The notes beneath the pieces were generated by a model, which worked only from the letters and a program-made list of their open reading frames with translations, was not told the origin of the DNA and did no database searches. From Candidatus Moraniibacteriota bacterium (GTDB taxonomy: Bacteria > Patescibacteriota > Minisyncoccia > Moranbacterales > GCA-2747515): DNA of 54,732 nt. The stretch spans positions 1 through 54,732 of the forward strand of contig JALVQA010000001.1 in assembly GCA_027031495.1 (NCBI GenBank). Reading direction: 5' to 3'. A program made the translations under genes and the position numbers. Position 1 is the stretch's first letter. Each line of letters begins with the position of its first letter. Shown one piece after another: positions 24,296-33,759 of the stretch.

Positions 24296-25024
24296 TTATT
24301 TGTGAGATAGCGTGAGGTGAATGTCCGTGAAAAGATGTACATCTCTCATCTCGCGCATGATACGTGCTGGCGTTTGAGCTAAGGTTCCATCTGGGGCCAG
24401 TACGCGACTGAGCGCAGTACGTTTTTGTATACCACACGCATACACAATCGCATGGTTAACTCGCGCGCGCAAGTATGTCATTGTTAGTGTCACGCGCTCA
24501 GGAAATGGGTTTTTTCCTGTTGCATCATAGCCCACAACATCGCGCTGCGGATTATCAAATAACTGTGCAAACATCTGTGGATCCTCTGGAAATGGCATAA
24601 TTCCAGCTGTATGTCCATCCGGCCCTATACCAAGCAACGCAACAACAACACCATCTTTGTGTATGTTATGCCACGTATGGAGTACTTCTTCATAACGACG
24701 CGCCGCATCTGTGCGCGTTGGCGCACTATGTGCAATACTCACAAAATGTGCCCCACTGGCACATGCGTGTTTAGTTAGTATTGCTGTACGAACAGCAATA
24801 TCATTACGATCATCCTTGTCAGCGCGGTAGCGCTCATCCACAACACCGATTGTGACATTTTCCCACACCACGTCTTTTGGTGCGCGTTGCAAAAGCGCCA
24901 GCGCCGATCCGCCGGAAAGCAGTAACAGTATTGCGTGCGTGTGTGACTGCAAAAGTGCGTGATGCAATGCCTCTGCTGCATGCGCCGCTGCTGCTGCCGC
25001 ATCCTGTGCAATGACTGTTTTCAT
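24296..25024 (-). CDS. pgl: 6-phosphogluconolactonase
   Basis: LLLSGGSALALL, IGVVDERYRADKDDRND, VVALLGIGPDGHTAGIMP. Confidence 0.93.
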   Translation of the reverse strand: MKTVIAQDAAAAAAHAAEALHHALLQSHTHAILLLLSGGSALALLQRAPKDVVWENVTIGVVDERYRADKDDRNDIAVRTAILTKHACASGAHFVSIAHSAPTRTDAARRYEEVLHTWHNIHKDGVVVALLGIGPDGHTAGIMPFPEDPQMFAQLFDNPQRDVVGYDATGKNPFPERVTLTMTYLRARVNHAIVYACGIQKRTALSRVLAPDGTLAQTPARIMREMRDVHLFTDIHLTLSHK

Positions 25025-25036
25025 ACACTATTTATA

Positions 25037-25945
25037 TTAGTTTTCTTCATCCGTGCGCGCCACTGGATGCCCGCCGAATTGTCCACGTAAAGCACTGACC
25101 ACTTGCCCCGTATAACTCGGGTGTTTTTGCGATTCTTCACGAAAACGAAGACTATCTTCAATCACTGGCACATCTACGCCAAGTTCTTTCGCCGTCTGCA
25201 CCGTCCAAAGACCCTCACCACTATGACTAACTTTACCACTAATATCTGCAAGATCTTCGCCATATGCGCGAAAAGCATCTTCAAGCCATTGTATCAACCG
25301 CGACTCAATGACACTGCGATGATTATAGACGCGCGCCACTTCCGTCAAAGCAATATTAAACGGTGCCGCTTTCATTACAGCAAATCCTTCAGCGATCGCC
25401 TGCATCATACCGTATTCAATACCATTATGCACCATCTTAACAAAATGCCCTGCGCCCGATGACCCCATATACCCGTATGCATCCGGTGCTGCAATGTCTC
25501 GCAATAGTGACACGTGCTTCTCGTACACATCACGCGACCCACCGATCATCAGACATGCACCTGTGCGCGCACCCTCCGGACCACCGCTGGTACCGACATC
25601 CAACATGAGGATGCCTTGATTAGCAAGGGTTTTTGCACGACGTATCGTTTCCTTATAGTTGCTATTGCCACCGTCAATGACCGTATCACCCGGCACTAAA
25701 TGTGGCATGAGTTCCATAAGCACATCATCAACAACCGTATGCGGCACCATTAACCATACCGTGCGCGTACCCGGTGTGCCCACGAGCACATCGGCGAGTC
25801 GTTCAACAACCATGATCCCTGCCGCCACCGTCCGCGCACGCGCCGTTGCATCAGGATCAAAAGCAACAACTTCATGCCCTTTTTCCATGAGGCGTGTAAC
25901 CATGTTGCGCCCCATTTTTCCTAATCCAATATATCCAAGTGTCAT
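25037..25945 (-). CDS. gnd: 6-phosphogluconate dehydrogenase (decarboxylating), short type
   Basis: LGYIGLGKMGRNMVTRLMEKGHEV, VIDGGNSNYKETIRRAKTL, DVGTSGGPEGA, GSSGAGHFVKMVHNGIEYGMMQAIAEG. Confidence 0.96.
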   Translation of the reverse strand: MTLGYIGLGKMGRNMVTRLMEKGHEVVAFDPDATARARTVAAGIMVVERLADVLVGTPGTRTVWLMVPHTVVDDVLMELMPHLVPGDTVIDGGNSNYKETIRRAKTLANQGILMLDVGTSGGPEGARTGACLMIGGSRDVYEKHVSLLRDIAAPDAYGYMGSSGAGHFVKMVHNGIEYGMMQAIAEGFAVMKAAPFNIALTEVARVYNHRSVIESRLIQWLEDAFRAYGEDLADISGKVSHSGEGLWTVQTAKELGVDVPVIEDSLRFREESQKHPSYTGQVVSALRGQFGGHPVARTDEEN

Positions 25946-25957
25946 CTATTTTATTCT

Positions 25958-27391
25958 TTAATGCTTACGTACATTATGTGTTATAATCTCCTCCGGCGTG
26001 CTACCTGATGCATAAATGTGTAGTGGCAATGCGTGCCACGCCTCTAAGATCGGCGTAACAAATCGCCACGTTGCCATCACTTCTGCTGTAGATGCAAAGA
26101 GTGTCTGATCACCGCGAATGCAATCAAAGAGAACTTTCTCGTATGCATCCGGTTCGCTAATATTATATGTCTCACGATAGTCAAAACTGAATTGTCGTGG
26201 CTCAATGTCGCCGCCAAGACCGGGTCTCTTAGCAAAAAATGTCATGTCAATACCTTCGTGTGGTTGAATGCGAAATGTGATGATGTTCTGATGCCGGTGT
26301 TCTTTATGTGTATGCGCACAGAAACATGGCACAGCTTCTGCAAAAAACACTTTCACTTCCGTATATTTACACGCAAGTGCTTTGCCACTAGTAATAGTAA
26401 TCGGTACACCACGCCATCGTTGGGCGTTTACTTCAAATGTGATACGGAAAAATGTTTCTGTCTGCGAATCCGGTGCAACACCATCTACATTGCGATAGCC
26501 GTCATACTGTGCACGCACAACATTTTCTGTCAGCGGCAGGCGTATCGCCATGCGCTCGAGAATTGCCGTACGTTCACGTCGGATTGCGGCGGCATCCAAC
26601 GTACCAGGATGGTCCATCATAAGCGTCGCAATGGTCTGTAGCATATGATTTTGACCTACGTCACGCAATGCTCCGATGCCGTCATAAAATGCACCGCGCG
26701 TCCCAACGTCAATTTGCTCGGCAAGGGTCATCTCAATACGTTCAATGTAGCGTGCATTCCACGTCGGCTCAAAAAGTGTGTTAGAAAAGCGAAAGGTTAA
26801 TATGTTTTGGATTGTTTCCTTCGCAAGATAGTGATCAATGCGAAAGATTTGTTCTTCACGAAATAGTCGCCCCAACAGCACATCCAGCTCCGCAGCGGTC
26901 GTGATATTGCTTCCAAACGGCTTTTCAATCAACACGCGCGTCCACCCCGTATCTGATGAGCATGGGATGGTCAAACCACTATGTGCAAGATTTATAAGAA
27001 CGCCTTTGTAATGAACTGGTGCAATAGCAAGGTAAAACAACTTGTTTGTGCATTGCCCGATCGTATCATCAATTGCAATAAGACGTTGTGCAATATCGCG
27101 GTACGCGTGCGCATCTGTAAAATCACCACGCTGATAGTGTATACACGACACAAAGGCTTTCGTATCAACATTGTGACCGTGTTTTTCAGCAATGACATCA
27201 TGTACATATGCACGGAATGCTTCATCTGTATATGTAGACCGCCCAATACCAATTATGCGAAATGTTGTTGGTAAAAAACCTTTTTGGTGCAAATCAAAAA
27301 GTGCCGGCAACAACTTCCGTCGCGACAAATCGCCGGTGATACCGAAGATGACGAAGACTGTTGGCGTATTTATGCTTTTAACTTGTATCAT
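25958..27391 (-). CDS. zwf: Glucose-6-phosphate 1-dehydrogenase
   Basis: VFVIFGITGDLSRRKLLPALFDL, RIDHYLAKETIQNILTFRFSN, GKALACKYTEVKVFF. Confidence 0.97.
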   Translation of the reverse strand: MIQVKSINTPTVFVIFGITGDLSRRKLLPALFDLHQKGFLPTTFRIIGIGRSTYTDEAFRAYVHDVIAEKHGHNVDTKAFVSCIHYQRGDFTDAHAYRDIAQRLIAIDDTIGQCTNKLFYLAIAPVHYKGVLINLAHSGLTIPCSSDTGWTRVLIEKPFGSNITTAAELDVLLGRLFREEQIFRIDHYLAKETIQNILTFRFSNTLFEPTWNARYIERIEMTLAEQIDVGTRGAFYDGIGALRDVGQNHMLQTIATLMMDHPGTLDAAAIRRERTAILERMAIRLPLTENVVRAQYDGYRNVDGVAPDSQTETFFRITFEVNAQRWRGVPITITSGKALACKYTEVKVFFAEAVPCFCAHTHKEHRHQNIITFRIQPHEGIDMTFFAKRPGLGGDIEPRQFSFDYRETYNISEPDAYEKVLFDCIRGDQTLFASTAEVMATWRFVTPILEAWHALPLHIYASGSTPEEIITHNVRKH

Positions 27392-27421
27392 AAATCCCTT
27401 TTATTATCGAGTATCGTCGTA

Positions 27422-28609
27422 CTAAAAATAGCGTCTACTCATTTTTCTTTCGCGCTTCTTTTGCGTTTTGCGCATACCTGCACGCACAGGTCCGATTGCT
27501 TCATCCTCATAATCTTCCCATAAACTAAGTACGCGCTCTGCCGCATATTGCTCTGGTGTCTCTGACGCAAAGACAAAATCGGATAATTTTGCTTCTAGCG
27601 CCTTGCGTAGTTTTGCTGGCGTATTAAGATCTTGTGGAATTTGTTTCATTTCTTGTAGCTTATTCACATACTGCTGTGCCACAGCATGACCACTCTGTAA
27701 AGCACGATCTAGATGCAACGCCATATGAAACGCATCAATACCAATCCATCGTACCGCTTCCGCATTAGCAAATGTTGCAGCGTAGCCACTTTCCTGCCAT
27801 TGCGCCAAAAAACGCAGTGCCTTTGCTAATAATTTTGGCTTGACATAATAGTCGCCTCTTCCACGAAAGCGTTCCTTTCTTTCATAATCTGCTATACGCA
27901 CGATATTACGCACTGTATCAAGAAGACATTGTTGTGTTGCAATCACTTTTTTATCCGTACATAGCACTTCATTAACTGTAAAATCACGTGTATCAAAGTA
28001 ATTTTTCTCCAACTCTTCTACACCATAACCATTTCTATAGTCATCCGGCATATACGTGCGCGCAATCTCTGCACGTTCTTCACTATTGCCAACACCTTTC
28101 TCAACAACGATATCAAGGTCTCGTGGTGGCACCGCTTTCAAACCAAGTGCATACATCAACATTGTGCGTGCGGCCCCGCCTTTATACAAATAGCCTGGTG
28201 GTAGCTTCGGCAGCATCGTTTCTGTTCCTTCTGGCAACTCGAGCACCCAAACATGCGTGTGTTGTGTTTCGCGTAGGCGCTCTGCAACATCTTCACCGCA
28301 ATATGTTGCAACTACTCTCAATACATAAGCGGCATCATCGCATCGCTCATCTAGCGCTTTATCAACGGTGCGTACTCGCACATAAGCAGGGTCCTCAAAA
28401 AAATTATAGTATTTTGTATTTTTTTCCTTCTCTTTAATCCAATCTGCATATTGTTCTTCCAGAACGCGTAGACCTTTGCGCAACTCCTCCTGCACAACAG
28501 CATCTGCTTCATATGCTGCCGTCAACCACTCTAAAAGAAGATCTTCATCAATACGTTGTTCTTGTGACGATGTTCTTCGTGTTTCCCTGTGATGAATATA
28601 CTTTTCCAT
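27422..28609 (-). CDS. Nucleotidyltransferase-like protein
   Basis: YLYKGGAARTMLMYALGLKAVPPRDLDIVVEKG resembles the GG...DxD head motif of NTase-fold proteins; 395 aa. Confidence 0.6.
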   Translation of the reverse strand: MEKYIHHRETRRTSSQEQRIDEDLLLEWLTAAYEADAVVQEELRKGLRVLEEQYADWIKEKEKNTKYYNFFEDPAYVRVRTVDKALDERCDDAAYVLRVVATYCGEDVAERLRETQHTHVWVLELPEGTETMLPKLPPGYLYKGGAARTMLMYALGLKAVPPRDLDIVVEKGVGNSEERAEIARTYMPDDYRNGYGVEELEKNYFDTRDFTVNEVLCTDKKVIATQQCLLDTVRNIVRIADYERKERFRGRGDYYVKPKLLAKALRFLAQWQESGYAATFANAEAVRWIGIDAFHMALHLDRALQSGHAVAQQYVNKLQEMKQIPQDLNTPAKLRKALEAKLSDFVFASETPEQYAAERVLSLWEDYEDEAIGPVRAGMRKTQKKRERKMSRRYF

Positions 28610-28619
28610 AAACGATATT

Positions 28620-29258
28620 TTATGATGTACATACTGTCTTTTTTTGTAATGCTATCAATGCAGCTACCGGATCTGTAGCGCTACTGATCGCACTGCCAAC
28701 GCCGGCGGCATCGGCGCCGGCCTCACACACGCGCGCAATTGTCTGCGTGTTAACACCGCCGTCTACCGCCACCCACAACGATGGGAGATCACTTTTAAGA
28801 TCACTCACCTTCTCCAACATCTCCGGCATAAAACGTTGTCCCTGCTCACCGGGTTCAACCGTCATAACCTGCACAGCATCAAGTTCGTCAATATATGGCA
28901 AGATTTGCTCTATCGCTGTCTGTGGTGCAATGGAAAGCCCACGTGCAAAATCATATTCACTCATTACATCAAAAACATCCGTCACACTTTCTAACGGTTC
29001 CGGATGAATGTAAACGCGACGCGCACCAACCGCCGCACACGCCTGCAAATACTGCACGGGGTCATCAACCATAAGATGCACTTCTACGTCAAAATCATCA
29101 AGTTCACCGGCAAGTTCAAAAAGATCGAATGTCTCATCCGGTGTCATTGTGCCATCCATAACATCAATCTGCAACCACTGCGCCTTCCCTCTCAGTTGCT
29201 CAATTTCTGCAAGCGCGTCATCACTTGTTTCCGTAAGAATTGCTGGAATAACAATCAT
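28620..29258 (-). CDS. rpe: Ribulose-phosphate 3-epimerase
   Basis: WLQIDVMDGTMTPD, VEVHLMVDDP, VMTVEPGEQGQRF, VAVDGGVNTQTI. Confidence 0.93.
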   Translation of the reverse strand: MIVIPAILTETSDDALAEIEQLRGKAQWLQIDVMDGTMTPDETFDLFELAGELDDFDVEVHLMVDDPVQYLQACAAVGARRVYIHPEPLESVTDVFDVMSEYDFARGLSIAPQTAIEQILPYIDELDAVQVMTVEPGEQGQRFMPEMLEKVSDLKSDLPSLWVAVDGGVNTQTIARVCEAGADAAGVGSAISSATDPVAALIALQKKTVCTS

Positions 29259-29263
29259 ATTCT

Positions 29264-29719
29264 TTATGTTTTATGAGTTTTTGTAATCTTTTTCACACGA
29301 CGCACGTGACGTTCTTCTTGTGAATAGCATGTCTCCAAAAATGCACGAACACACGCATTTGCTTCATCGTCTGTCATATAGTCCGCACTGAGACATAACA
29401 TATTGAGATGGTCATGCTGTGTTGCGTCACGTACGTGCGCTGGTGACAATGCCAAACCGGCACGTATACCATCAATCTTATTTGCTGCAATGCAGACACC
29501 AACACCACTACCGCAAATTACAATGCCACGTGCATTAGTATCGATCGCAACACGTCGCGCGACTGCCTGCGCGTAGTCGGGATAGTCATCGTCTGCATCA
29601 TAAACCGATGCACCACAATCAACAACATGGTAGCCATTGCGCACGAGCCATGTTTTGATGTGCTCCTTACGCGCAAAACCACGATGTGCAGCGCCAATGT
29701 AAATCGTTATCTCCGCCAT
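29264..29719 (-). CDS. rpiB: Ribose-5-phosphate isomerase B
   Basis: YIGAAHRGFARKEHIKTWL, DDDYPDYAQAVARRV, GIVICGSGVGVCIAANKIDGIRAGL. Confidence 0.95.
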   Translation of the reverse strand: MAEITIYIGAAHRGFARKEHIKTWLVRNGYHVVDCGASVYDADDDYPDYAQAVARRVAIDTNARGIVICGSGVGVCIAANKIDGIRAGLALSPAHVRDATQHDHLNMLCLSADYMTDDEANACVRAFLETCYSQEERHVRRVKKITKTHKT

Positions 29720-29727
29720 AATGTACT

Positions 29728-30666
29728 CTACTGTGTACGCACCATATCATACGCTGCAAGCGTTGCTTTGATCGCATCACCCGCCGCAATATTGTTCTGG
29801 CGATAAATTTGCTGCGTCACGTCGCCTGCTGCAAAAATGCCTGGTACACTTGTTGCACCGTTCTTGTAATCTACAATGATATGTCCATAATCATCCGTTG
29901 CAACGAGATCTTTTACTATTTCCGTATTTGGCACAACACCGATCTCAACAAAGACACCTTGCGTTGCAAGCTCCTTCTCTTCACCGGTAACACTATCCTT
30001 GTACTTAAGTCCTGTCACCATCATGTCGCCAATGATCTCTGTTGTCAGTGCATTGTACAATACATCCACTTTCCCGGATGCCATAATACGCTCAAACGTT
30101 ACCGGATCACCTGTGATTTTATCATTGTTACTGATGAGCGTAATATGCTTTGCCCATGGCAAGAGATCTTCCACGGCCTCAAGACCAGAATTGCCAGCAC
30201 CCACAACAGCTGTATCTTTATCGCGAAACATTGGCGCATCACATGTTGAACAGTACACAACGCCACGCCCTTTAAATTTCTCCTCTCCCGGCACGTTGAG
30301 ATGACGATGACGTCCTCCCGTTACCACAAGTACTATTTTGGTTGTGTATACCGTACCATCATCTATCGTAACGGCAAATGTACCGTCATCGTTTGCTACA
30401 ACACCCTCTGCGCGATGCGGATGCATAATTTCTATATCACCTTCCTGCGCGCGAATATGCTTCTCAAGTTTCTCTGCGAGCTCAGTACCTTTTATGGAAA
30501 CTTCACCAATCCAATTTTCTATTGATGCACTCACCGTAGACTGTCCACCAAAGCGATCTGTGATAATCACCGCTTTCATCTGTTTGCGTGCTGCATAAAC
30601 ACCAGCTGCCACCCCACCGGGACCACCGCCAATAATAACGATATCGTACACACCTTGCGTTGTCAT
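29728..30666 (-). CDS. trxB: Thioredoxin reductase
   Basis: VIIGGGPGGVAAGVYAARKQM, GVVYCSTCDAPMFRDKDTAVVGAGNSGLEA, GIFAAGDVT. Confidence 0.95.
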   Translation of the reverse strand: MTTQGVYDIVIIGGGPGGVAAGVYAARKQMKAVIITDRFGGQSTVSASIENWIGEVSIKGTELAEKLEKHIRAQEGDIEIMHPHRAEGVVANDDGTFAVTIDDGTVYTTKIVLVVTGGRHRHLNVPGEEKFKGRGVVYCSTCDAPMFRDKDTAVVGAGNSGLEAVEDLLPWAKHITLISNNDKITGDPVTFERIMASGKVDVLYNALTTEIIGDMMVTGLKYKDSVTGEEKELATQGVFVEIGVVPNTEIVKDLVATDDYGHIIVDYKNGATSVPGIFAAGDVTQQIYRQNNIAAGDAIKATLAAYDMVRTQ

Positions 30667-31287: not shown

Positions 31288-32082
31288 ATGAATGTATATA
31301 TTCACAATAATCACTATTTTATGGCATCACGCAAATATATCACCATCACACTCATTGCCGTCACCATACTAAACTGTGTGACCGTGTGGTTTTTGTGGCG
31401 CATGCCATGGCTCGTATTTGCACTTACATTTACGGGTGGTGCCATACTTCTTCGTCTGTTCCATGATTTTCGCATTATAGCGGTCTATCTCTTAACAGCT
31501 GTTGCAATGACGGCAACAGAAATACTTGCCGTCACCATCGGCATTTGGACTTATACAATGCCAACGTTTTATGGCGTCCCCGTTTTTCTTTTGAGCGTAT
31601 GGGGCAATATTGGCATCATCGCAACAAGTATGTATAAACTCGCGCGCAACATAACACACGAAAAAATGCCACGGGCACGTACACATAACGAACTATACGC
31701 TCAAGTTACATGGTTGTTAATCTTTGGTGGCATATCTCTCTCGGTGCTTGTGTTTGCGTGGCATGACATTGCCCTTGCAACAATACTGCTGATAGGCATC
31801 AAAATTGCACAAATTGTAAAGATGCATCACATGGAGCATAAAGCCGCCACCATACTCTTTCTTAGCACAATTCTCGGTGGCGCGATCGTTGGTGAAATAA
31901 CAAGTGTTGCGCTTGGTGTATGGCATTACAATACTGATACAATTTTTGGTCTACCGCTATTTATTTACTTTTCGTGGGGGAGCACGGGGCTTATTATTGC
32001 AGAGACATATACTATTCTTAGTTCACCTCTCGTAATGCGGTGGTGGCAACGCTCTGCAAAGCATTCATTAATACAGCATTAA
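31288..32082 (+). CDS. Membrane protein with internally duplicated CruF/lycopene-cyclase-like motif, copy A
   Basis: Two repeats: TEILAVTIGIWTYTMPTFYGVPVFLLSVWG and GEITSVALGVWHYNTDTIFGLPLFIYFSWG; polytopic. Start may be 31321. Confidence 0.7.
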   Translation: MNVYIHNNHYFMASRKYITITLIAVTILNCVTVWFLWRMPWLVFALTFTGGAILLRLFHDFRIIAVYLLTAVAMTATEILAVTIGIWTYTMPTFYGVPVFLLSVWGNIGIIATSMYKLARNITHEKMPRARTHNELYAQVTWLLIFGGISLSVLVFAWHDIALATILLIGIKIAQIVKMHHMEHKAATILFLSTILGGAIVGEITSVALGVWHYNTDTIFGLPLFIYFSWGSTGLIIAETYTILSSPLVMRWWQRSAKHSLIQH

Positions 32083-32085
32083 CCT

Positions 32086-33009
32086 ATGCGTCATCCATAT
32101 ACTCTCACACATATAAAAATAGTTGCTACAAGTGTCCGCATGCCGCAATTTTTCCTTTTTTCGATAGCTTTTACAATCGGTGTCGGCGTTGCGCTTTACG
32201 CTGTTCACAAAACAATCTATATCTACACCGATATCGCGACAATTGCGCCATTATCTTTAATTGGCATAAGCATCGCCTACTTTACATGGACAGCATCGTG
32301 TATAACAAACGATATTTATGACATTGCCATTGATAGTATTACAAACCCTCAACGACCACTCCCACGTCAGATTATTGATATAAAAACGTATCGCACTTTT
32401 GCATTAACTGCCAATTTGATAGCACTTATTCTCGCGTACACTCTTGGCACCACGCCATTTCTTTTGTGCTGTACTTTTATTGCCGTAAATCACATATACA
32501 ATGCACCACCGCTTCGCCTCAAGCGCATACCTTTTATTGCAACACTCCTTGGCGGTTTAAGCATACAAATTATGATATTTATGGGATTCTATGCAACAAT
32601 ACAGCGTTATAATTTTGCTATTACTTACCCCTATACGCTATGGCAAATTATCTTTGCGATTGTAATTTTTAGCTTTATTATTCCGCTCAAGGACATCAAA
32701 GACATTGATAGTGATCGTGCCAATAAAGTCTATACACTTCCAGTACTTTTTGGCACGCGTACGACAATATGGTTTGCAACGCTGGCCATCAGTGCCATTT
32801 TTTATATGCCACTATTCATTTCTCATACCTTTACCTTGCCGGCATTTATAAGTGTTACTATTGTCCTATGTCTTGCACTATACATTATATACAAACTCAC
32901 TACACACCATATTGATGAAAAATATTCTGTTTCGCCGTACAAAGTTCTTGCATGGCTTACCGTGCCGGCATTGCTTTACATCGGTATTCTTCTTGCACTT
33001 TTCCTCTAA
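32086..33009 (+). CDS. UbiA-family prenyltransferase
   Basis: NDIYDIAIDSITNPQRPLPR (NDxxDxxxD), YNAPPLRLKRIPFIATLLGG, KDIKDIDSDRANKVYTLPVLFG (DxxDxxxD). Confidence 0.93.
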   Translation: MRHPYTLTHIKIVATSVRMPQFFLFSIAFTIGVGVALYAVHKTIYIYTDIATIAPLSLIGISIAYFTWTASCITNDIYDIAIDSITNPQRPLPRQIIDIKTYRTFALTANLIALILAYTLGTTPFLLCCTFIAVNHIYNAPPLRLKRIPFIATLLGGLSIQIMIFMGFYATIQRYNFAITYPYTLWQIIFAIVIFSFIIPLKDIKDIDSDRANKVYTLPVLFGTRTTIWFATLAISAIFYMPLFISHTFTLPAFISVTIVLCLALYIIYKLTTHHIDEKYSVSPYKVLAWLTVPALLYIGILLALFL

Positions 33010-33015
33010 AAACAT

Positions 33016-33759
33016 ATGACTCCTTATTACAAAAACACTTCCAACACAACAGTTATTCTTGTCTCTTTTTTAATGCCGGTGATCGTGCACCTTGTCATAT
33101 GGAATCTGTGGGCGCATGATGCGCTTGCAACACTCATTATTGCCGGAGTAACACTCTGCTACATACTATATTTTCGCAGTGTTAAGATGTTTATTGTTGC
33201 TCTAAGCGTTGGCACACTCGGCACACTACAAGACTATTATTTTATAGCACATAATTTATGGCGTTATAGTAGCGTGCATGGCGCTATAATTCCACTTTAC
33301 GTTCCCGCGCTTTGGGCTGCCGTCGCATGTATGCTTATCAACCTCTTTAAGGCTATCAGCAACGCCACACGGACGCATCCACTCCTTTCTTATTACCGCC
33401 CACGACATGGTCTCGCGCAGTTGGCAGCAACAACACTCGCCCTTTGCAGTGCGTTATTGGCGCTGGCAACACTTTCCCATAATATCCCACTTCTTGCAGG
33501 GTCATTTTTTATCATTGATATTATTTACGTATGGTTTATGCGAAGTGTGCCGCTTGCACTTGTTGGTATCACCGCCTTTGTATTTGGCATGATTGGTGAA
33601 ATTACGGCCGTAAGTATGGGCGCATGGCACTACCCTCATGGCACTTTCATGGGTGTGCCTCCCTACATATTTTTCGGTTGGGATGTCATCGGGACGGTTA
33701 CTGTCGGCACTTATATGGCACTGGACACTATCTTTTCTCAAAACACGCATCACCGCTAG
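33016..33759 (+). CDS. Membrane protein with internally duplicated CruF/lycopene-cyclase-like motif, copy B
   Basis: GTLQDYYFIAHNLWRYSSVHGAIIPLYVPALWA and GEITAVSMGAWHYPHGTFMGVPPYIFFGWD, matching the motif in 31288..32082. Confidence 0.7.
   Translation: MTPYYKNTSNTTVILVSFLMPVIVHLVIWNLWAHDALATLIIAGVTLCYILYFRSVKMFIVALSVGTLGTLQDYYFIAHNLWRYSSVHGAIIPLYVPALWAAVACMLINLFKAISNATRTHPLLSYYRPRHGLAQLAATTLALCSALLALATLSHNIPLLAGSFFIIDIIYVWFMRSVPLALVGITAFVFGMIGEITAVSMGAWHYPHGTFMGVPPYIFFGWDVIGTVTVGTYMALDTIFSQNTHHR

Follow-up and report, generated by a model that had tools for sequence, protein, structure and literature searches.

What is a UbiA-family prenyltransferase doing between two related membrane proteins in a tiny, parasite-like bacterium that appears to make no carotenoids? 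The locus lies in a 54,732-nt stretch, here called the window, which is contig 1 of a Candidatus Moraniibacteriota MAG (1.0 Mb, 98% complete; G000, the window genome), and our genome-wide statements on this MAG derive from family searches. An earlier note on this DNA had suggested that the three genes form an isoprenoid/carotenoid or lipid prenylation module, and the analysis below asks which part of that suggestion holds.

Layout and internal repeats of the trio

The three genes share the forward strand, with UbiA in the middle, 3 bp after ORF1 and 6 bp ahead of ORF3, exactly the geometry described earlier (Table 1). A thioredoxin reductase gene precedes them and a tRNA-Arg gene follows, and in a promoter/terminator scan the promoter matches around the trio were close to chance level. 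Read by eye, the reverse-strand genes at 24296-30666 of the window encode 6-phosphogluconolactonase, 6-phosphogluconate dehydrogenase, glucose-6-phosphate dehydrogenase, ribulose-phosphate epimerase and RpiB, the run ending in thioredoxin reductase; by the same reading this reduced genome has an oxidative pentose-phosphate pathway.

ORF1 and ORF3 are homologous to each other (pairwise BLASTP, E = 2e-11). ORF3 was also recovered with ORF1 as the query of a whole-genome search (E = 1.9e-11), and the local alignment of the two scores 172, where 500 shuffles reached 74 at most. Each is also internally duplicated, the half-against-half scores being 104 for ORF1 and 77 for ORF3 with a shuffle maximum of 57 in both cases (0/500 as high), and the N- and C-terminal halves of the ORF1/3 family match each other with a probability of 98.5% in a profile-profile comparison. 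BLASTP, shuffles and profiles all agree, therefore, with the earlier view of the outer proteins as related and internally duplicated.

The motif that they share consists of an acid, a W-x-Y nine residues on, and then a P and a W. As had been proposed, it occurs once per half, giving four copies over the two proteins, each of which could be read directly in the sequence. Across five aligned members of the ORF1/3 family the W, Y, P and W do not vary, and the acid nine residues ahead of W-x-Y is retained in both halves of all two-domain members (5/5). The P-x-E-E of lycopene cyclases, which had been reported missing, is indeed absent, the aligned sites of ORF1 and ORF3 reading PVFL, PLFI, PLYV and PPYI.

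Table 1. Features of the trio, in window coordinates
Feature	Position	Strand	Description or basis
ORF1	31288..32082	+	264-aa membrane protein, two 4-helix repeats; divergent CruF/CarR relative by profile, Insig-like predicted fold
ORF1 motif copy 1, E78..W87xY..P98..W105, N-terminal repeat	31519..31605	+	sequence, family alignment, CruF alignment
ORF1 motif copy 2, E203..W212xY..P223..W230, C-terminal repeat	31894..31980	+	sequence, family alignment
UbiA-family prenyltransferase, stand-alone, 307 aa	32086..33009	+	PF01040 E 4.2e-31
UbiA first Asp motif NDIYDIAID	32308..32334	+	sequence
UbiA second Asp motif DIKDIDSD	32692..32715	+	sequence
ORF3	33016..33759	+	247-aa membrane protein, two 4-helix repeats, ORF1 homologue; kept with UbiA in sister genome
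ORF3 motif copy 3, D73..W82xY..P93..W100	33232..33318	+	sequence, family alignment
ORF3 motif copy 4, E195..W204xY..P215..W222	33598..33684	+	sequence, family alignment, CruF alignment

Relationship of ORF1 and ORF3 to CruF, CarR and Insig

Neither outer protein has a match above the curated cut-off in Pfam or NCBIfam. The CruF model PF04240 gave no match to either at E up to 10, and no PF04240 protein was found in the window genome; DUF2878, an earlier lead, fell away in the same Pfam search (no match at E up to 10). Among 18,950 models, the lycopene-cyclase domain TIGR03462 matched 6/7 family members weakly and in the same register (best E 0.0037), its best score in ORF1, 13.8 bits, lying below the cut-off of 39.4. 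Fumble, DUF1146, YmiA and DUF817 were set aside as candidates, their matches being weak and not common to the family members.

We collected genuine CarR-type cyclases and genuine CruF proteins from other Patescibacteria and compared profiles built from them with that of the ORF1/3 family. In these pairwise hhalign comparisons, in which the links all lie below curated cut-offs, the family matched CruF with a probability of 94.7% (E 5.7e-8, score 62), both halves being in register, and CarR with a probability of 92% (score 52). Column-shuffled CruF scored at most 16, and reversed CruF and unrelated polytopic families 12-17; over all controls (reversed, column-shuffled, elongase UbiA, fused UbiA and the N-terminal domain of the fused protein, described below) the score never exceeded 22, nor the probability 3.4%. 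One acid per half is retained at the acid positions of CruF and CarR, and copy 2 of the ORF1 motif aligns with the CruF segment DP..G.W.W..GIP.NF.GW. Judged by these profiles, ORF1 and ORF3 are distant relatives of CruF and of CarR-type carotenoid enzymes, and to this extent the interpretation in the earlier note is supported.

AlphaFold models of the two proteins, built from shallow alignments of 5 sequences, show two four-helix repeats (4+4) and are confident, with pLDDT 84 and 82 and pTM 0.82 and 0.80. The best PDB match of both was MvINS, a mycobacterial Insig with a lipid cavity (Foldseek probability 1.00; E 4e-4 and 1.7e-3), with a TM-score of 0.70–0.73 by target length and 0.53–0.56 by query length. 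Human Insig came next among the sensible PDB matches of both models, and Insig proteins were the only fold matches with a probability above 0.9. At the sequence level, the Insig models in Pfam did not match ORF1 or ORF3 at E up to 10 and PDB chains displayed no similarity to them; a viral fold library yielded nothing under E = 1. As modelled, then, the two proteins have an Insig-like fold, and they do not belong to the Insig sequence family.

A transporter fold, which had been named in advance as an outcome that would speak against the module, is not what the models show: by structure the proteins point to Insig, and by profile to CruF and CarR. That ORF1 and ORF3 transport or flip a prenylated product might be suggested by the presence of polytopic, internally duplicated membrane proteins beside a lipid enzyme. 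Yet the confident fold matches include no transporter, those above a probability of 0.9 being Insig only, and no Pfam or NCBIfam transporter family appeared at E up to 10, leaving this reading very improbable.

The double resemblance raises a broader idea. CruF hydratases, CarR lycopene cyclases and Insig sterol sensors may all be built on a single repeated membrane fold, evolved to hold isoprenoids, in which case the operon would be a bacterial example of Insig-fold proteins acting directly with a UbiA enzyme. HMG-CoA reductase is a target of both UBIAD1 and Insig in mammals, which offers an analogy only. A literature search found no link between Insig and lycopene cyclases or CruF, a weak negative given that subscription journals lay outside its coverage. 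We regard the idea as speculative and doubtful on present evidence.

Lineage of the UbiA gene, conservation of the locus and carotenoid routes

The middle gene encodes a clear UbiA protein (PF01040, 108.6 bits against a cut-off of 34.2) in which both Asp-rich motifs are intact, the only one in the window genome above the Pfam cut-off; by sequence it resembles the solved DGGGPS 6m31 (E 3.8e-9). UbiA occurs in 113 of the 131 genomes of the order. Among the proteins read, its usual form is a fusion of ~550 aa that includes, at the N-terminus, a membrane domain of ~260 aa outside known families. This polytopic domain carries a PPxxD..WSFY motif and has no Pfam family, and the fusion is nearly universal in the order (L029-L058). 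The trio UbiA lacks the domain, yet it falls inside the order's own UbiA clade (support 100/97), and a separate clade (100/100) holds the elongases that adjoin CruF or CarR elsewhere in the Patescibacteria, to which the trio UbiA has about 19-30% identity over partial alignments. Its exclusion from the lycopene-elongase (LyeJ/CrtEb) clade is thus well supported by the phylogeny; its branch is a long one (about 2 changes per column), which leaves its exact place inside the order's clade unsure.

On contig 4 of the window genome, the N-terminal domain is found in a protein of 504 aa, from the C-terminal half of which all UbiA motifs and any detectable similarity to UbiA have been lost (G000:C4:142414-143124, L126:1465-2979), and the same split of domain and UbiA occurs in a second genome (G002, L127). 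The UbiA activity seems to have shifted to a gene of its own. We considered whether ORF1 had arisen by detachment of the N-terminal domain from the order's fused UbiA and rejected the idea, both on the profile comparison (hhalign probability 0.2–3%) and since the domain persists elsewhere in the same genome, in the 504-aa protein. In another relative, G004, three in-frame stops interrupt the N-terminal domain upstream of UbiA (G004:C5:13311-14015, L129), and a lone ORF3-like gene sits on a different contig.

The genus has one other genome, the sister G001 (JALXES01), in which UbiA is followed directly by ORF3, the two being 59% and 70% identical to their counterparts in the window. Their neighbours there are ksgA and an RlpA-like gene; the surroundings differ from those in the window genome, and the pair therefore stayed together while its setting changed. 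Between the two genomes UbiA and ORF3 have a dN of 0.25–0.30, whereas dS is either saturated or about 1.7, indicating that both are under purifying selection. The sister contig starts 12 codons ahead of the conserved MPQF of UbiA, which places the position of ORF1 off the contig and out of sight, and no ORF1 counterpart was found elsewhere in that genome. Conservation of the neighbourhood in relatives, on which the earlier note had staked its case, accordingly holds for the UbiA-ORF3 pair and within one genus only.

The full trio was found in a single genome, that of the window. Family members in G004, G104, G099 and G123, as well as single-domain forms in other classes, have no UbiA neighbour, and ORF3 is nearer to the lone relatives in G004 and G104 (32–33% identity) than to ORF1 (20–21%), so that ORF1 did not arise as a recent duplicate of ORF3. 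Class- and phylum-wide searches produced no second trio, returning single-repeat proteins in varied contexts and one divergent two-domain protein (G054); a genome-collection scan with the ORF1/3 profile found only three Moraniibacteriota loci, the same as those from the sequence search, and a plasmid search gave no meaningful match. Stand-alone single-repeat proteins of about 110-150 aa carrying the E..W-x-Y..P..W motif occur in unrelated gene contexts (L117, L118, L119, L121, L016, L017).

Does the window genome have a carotenoid route that the trio could serve? Phytoene synthase (crtB, PF00494) gave no match there, and crtI is absent, the only trace being a 37-residue dinucleotide-fold match to TIGR02734. 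Of the three genes whose presence the earlier note had left to be checked, the prenyl diphosphate synthase alone was found, as a trans-polyprenyl synthase gene that adjoins a cis-prenyltransferase gene. With phytoene synthase and CrtI missing and a UbiA that does not descend from the elongases, this genome does not fit a carotenoid reading, as far as its gene content and phylogeny can tell. Archaeal-type ether lipids are an unlikely product of the trio as well, since GGGP synthase (PF01884) was detected in 0/104 good genomes of the order and not in the window genome.

Loci elsewhere in the Patescibacteria do show the arrangement known from C50-carotenoid clusters, UbiA elongases lying beside carotenoid membrane enzymes. 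In four of them (L084, L088, L090 and L093) CrtYc, CrtYd and UbiA stand in a row, accompanied in L084 and L093 by CrtI, and these are likely cyclic C50 carotenoid loci. In four others (L130-L133) CruF adjoins a LyeJ-like UbiA, L130 also adjoining a CrtI/CrtD-type desaturase. An earlier study reported lyeJ, crtD and cruF in Patescibacteria of Lake Baikal (PMC9948471), and CruF and Lye act in one pathway in bacterioruberin synthesis (PMC9122864). The occurrence of UbiA beside CruF or CarR makes an isoprenoid module plausible for the trio also; of the original proposal, this part is supported and the carotenoid part is not, on the missing crtB and crtI and the UbiA lineage.

Candidate function and comparison with known systems

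In the absence of a carotenoid pathway, the trio probably makes a different isoprenoid lipid. Our best reading, to which we give about an even chance, is a predicted non-carotenoid prenyl-lipid module in which UbiA works with two partners of the CruF/Insig fold. UbiA would take a prenyl chain from a prenyl diphosphate, the product of the genome's own trans-polyprenyl synthase, and attach it to a hydrophobic acceptor, and ORF1 and ORF3 would hold the isoprenoid chain of the product in a membrane cavity. CruF adds water to carotenoid end groups; by analogy, ORF1 and ORF3 would most likely modify a chain end through their one acid per half, by proton-driven hydration or isomerisation, or else simply hold the chain for UbiA, the three proteins acting together in either case. 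In its favour are the gaps of 3 and 6 bp, the intact UbiA motifs, the profile matches to CruF and CarR with the recurrent weak TIGR03462 matches, the acid retained in each half, the predicted 4+4 fold with MvINS as best match, the persistence of the UbiA-ORF3 pair at a different locus in the sister genome, the trans-polyprenyl synthase gene beside a cis-prenyltransferase gene, and the missing crtB and crtI. Against this reading stand the restriction of the full trio to one genome, the position of the other ORF1/3 family members, which are not beside UbiA, and profile links that lie below every curated cut-off and come from pairwise comparisons.

Another possible explanation is that UbiA has an order-wide function, with ORF1 and ORF3 as small membrane proteins that are unrelated to it and merely co-transcribed: their relatives elsewhere are unlinked to UbiA, and the trio is limited to one genus among the genomes searched. 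Such chance adjacency is improbable, however, considering that homologous proteins lie on both sides of one gene at gaps of 3 and 6 bp, that the UbiA-ORF3 linkage outlasts a change of genomic surroundings, and that kin of the ORF1/3 family adjoin other UbiA enzymes. In animals, Insig binds membrane proteins of sterol synthesis and regulates them, and ORF1 and ORF3 could likewise be non-enzymatic lipid-binding partners that scaffold, stabilise or regulate UbiA. MvINS as best match of both models, with human Insig next, is consistent with this role, as are the loss of the cyclase PxEE catalytic pair, the flanking of one enzyme by two paralogues and the stronger conservation of ORF3 than of UbiA between the sister genomes (70% vs 59%). 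It is at odds with the acid that each half retains, as in CruF, in all five two-domain members, with the lack of a Pfam Insig match at E up to 10 or of any PDB chain match by sequence, and with a modelled count of eight helices to Insig's six, at a TM-score of only 0.53-0.56 by query length; we consider a purely non-enzymatic role unlikely, although with a real chance of being right.

A carotenoid module could also be rescued if lycopene or another carotenoid came from a host, with UbiA as the elongase and ORF1 and ORF3 as hydratases or cyclases. The homology to CruF and CarR, the CruF or CarR pairs adjoining UbiA elongases in other Patescibacteria and the published patescibacterial lyeJ, crtD and cruF all lend it some credit. 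A 98% complete genome lacking crtB and crtI, a UbiA outside the LyeJ/CrtEb clade and inside that of the order, with about 19-30% identity to elongases, and outer proteins devoid of PxEE nevertheless make it quite unlikely, and we retain the non-carotenoid prenyl-lipid module.

The locus places a family known for its chemistry on carotenoid end groups in a carotenoid-free context, and it bridges, by sequence and by predicted structure, the CruF/CarR enzymes and Insig, a protein of wide interest for its origin and its ligand chemistry. It also points to an isoprenoid lipid in Patescibacteria, UbiA occurring in nearly every genome of the order and GGGP synthase in none of the good genomes searched; the window genome furthermore lacks crtB and crtI, the carotenoid genes that would explain its UbiA.

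Among known systems, CruF (PF04240) is similar in matching both halves, in having one acid per half and the motif G-x-W-x-[YW]..P..W, and in adjoining a UbiA enzyme in other Patescibacteria; it differs in that the ORF1/3 proteins have no curated PF04240 match and only 15% identity to it. Compared with CruF paired with a LyeJ/Lye elongase, the trio has a UbiA of another lineage, two flanking copies, and no crtB or crtI in its genome. CarR and CrtYc-CrtYd lycopene cyclases (TIGR03462) likewise have a small membrane domain in tandem and an acid before W-x-[YF], whereas ORF1 and ORF3 fall below the cut-off and lack the PxEE acids, in a genome without a lycopene source. Insig, with MvINS the top structural match of both models, has six helices where ORF1 and ORF3 have eight in two repeats, and shares no detectable sequence similarity with them; no sterol pathway is known in the window genome. 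CBO0543 (NF041644) and the stand-alone single-repeat Patescibacteria proteins have one four-helix repeat and a similar motif, but are single domains without a UbiA neighbour, and the CBO0543 match is far below its cut-off. The ~550-aa Moraniibacteriota fusion of membrane domain and UbiA, finally, shares the clade of the trio UbiA at about 33% identity; the trio enzyme is without the N-terminal domain, which the window genome keeps in a separate protein without the UbiA part.
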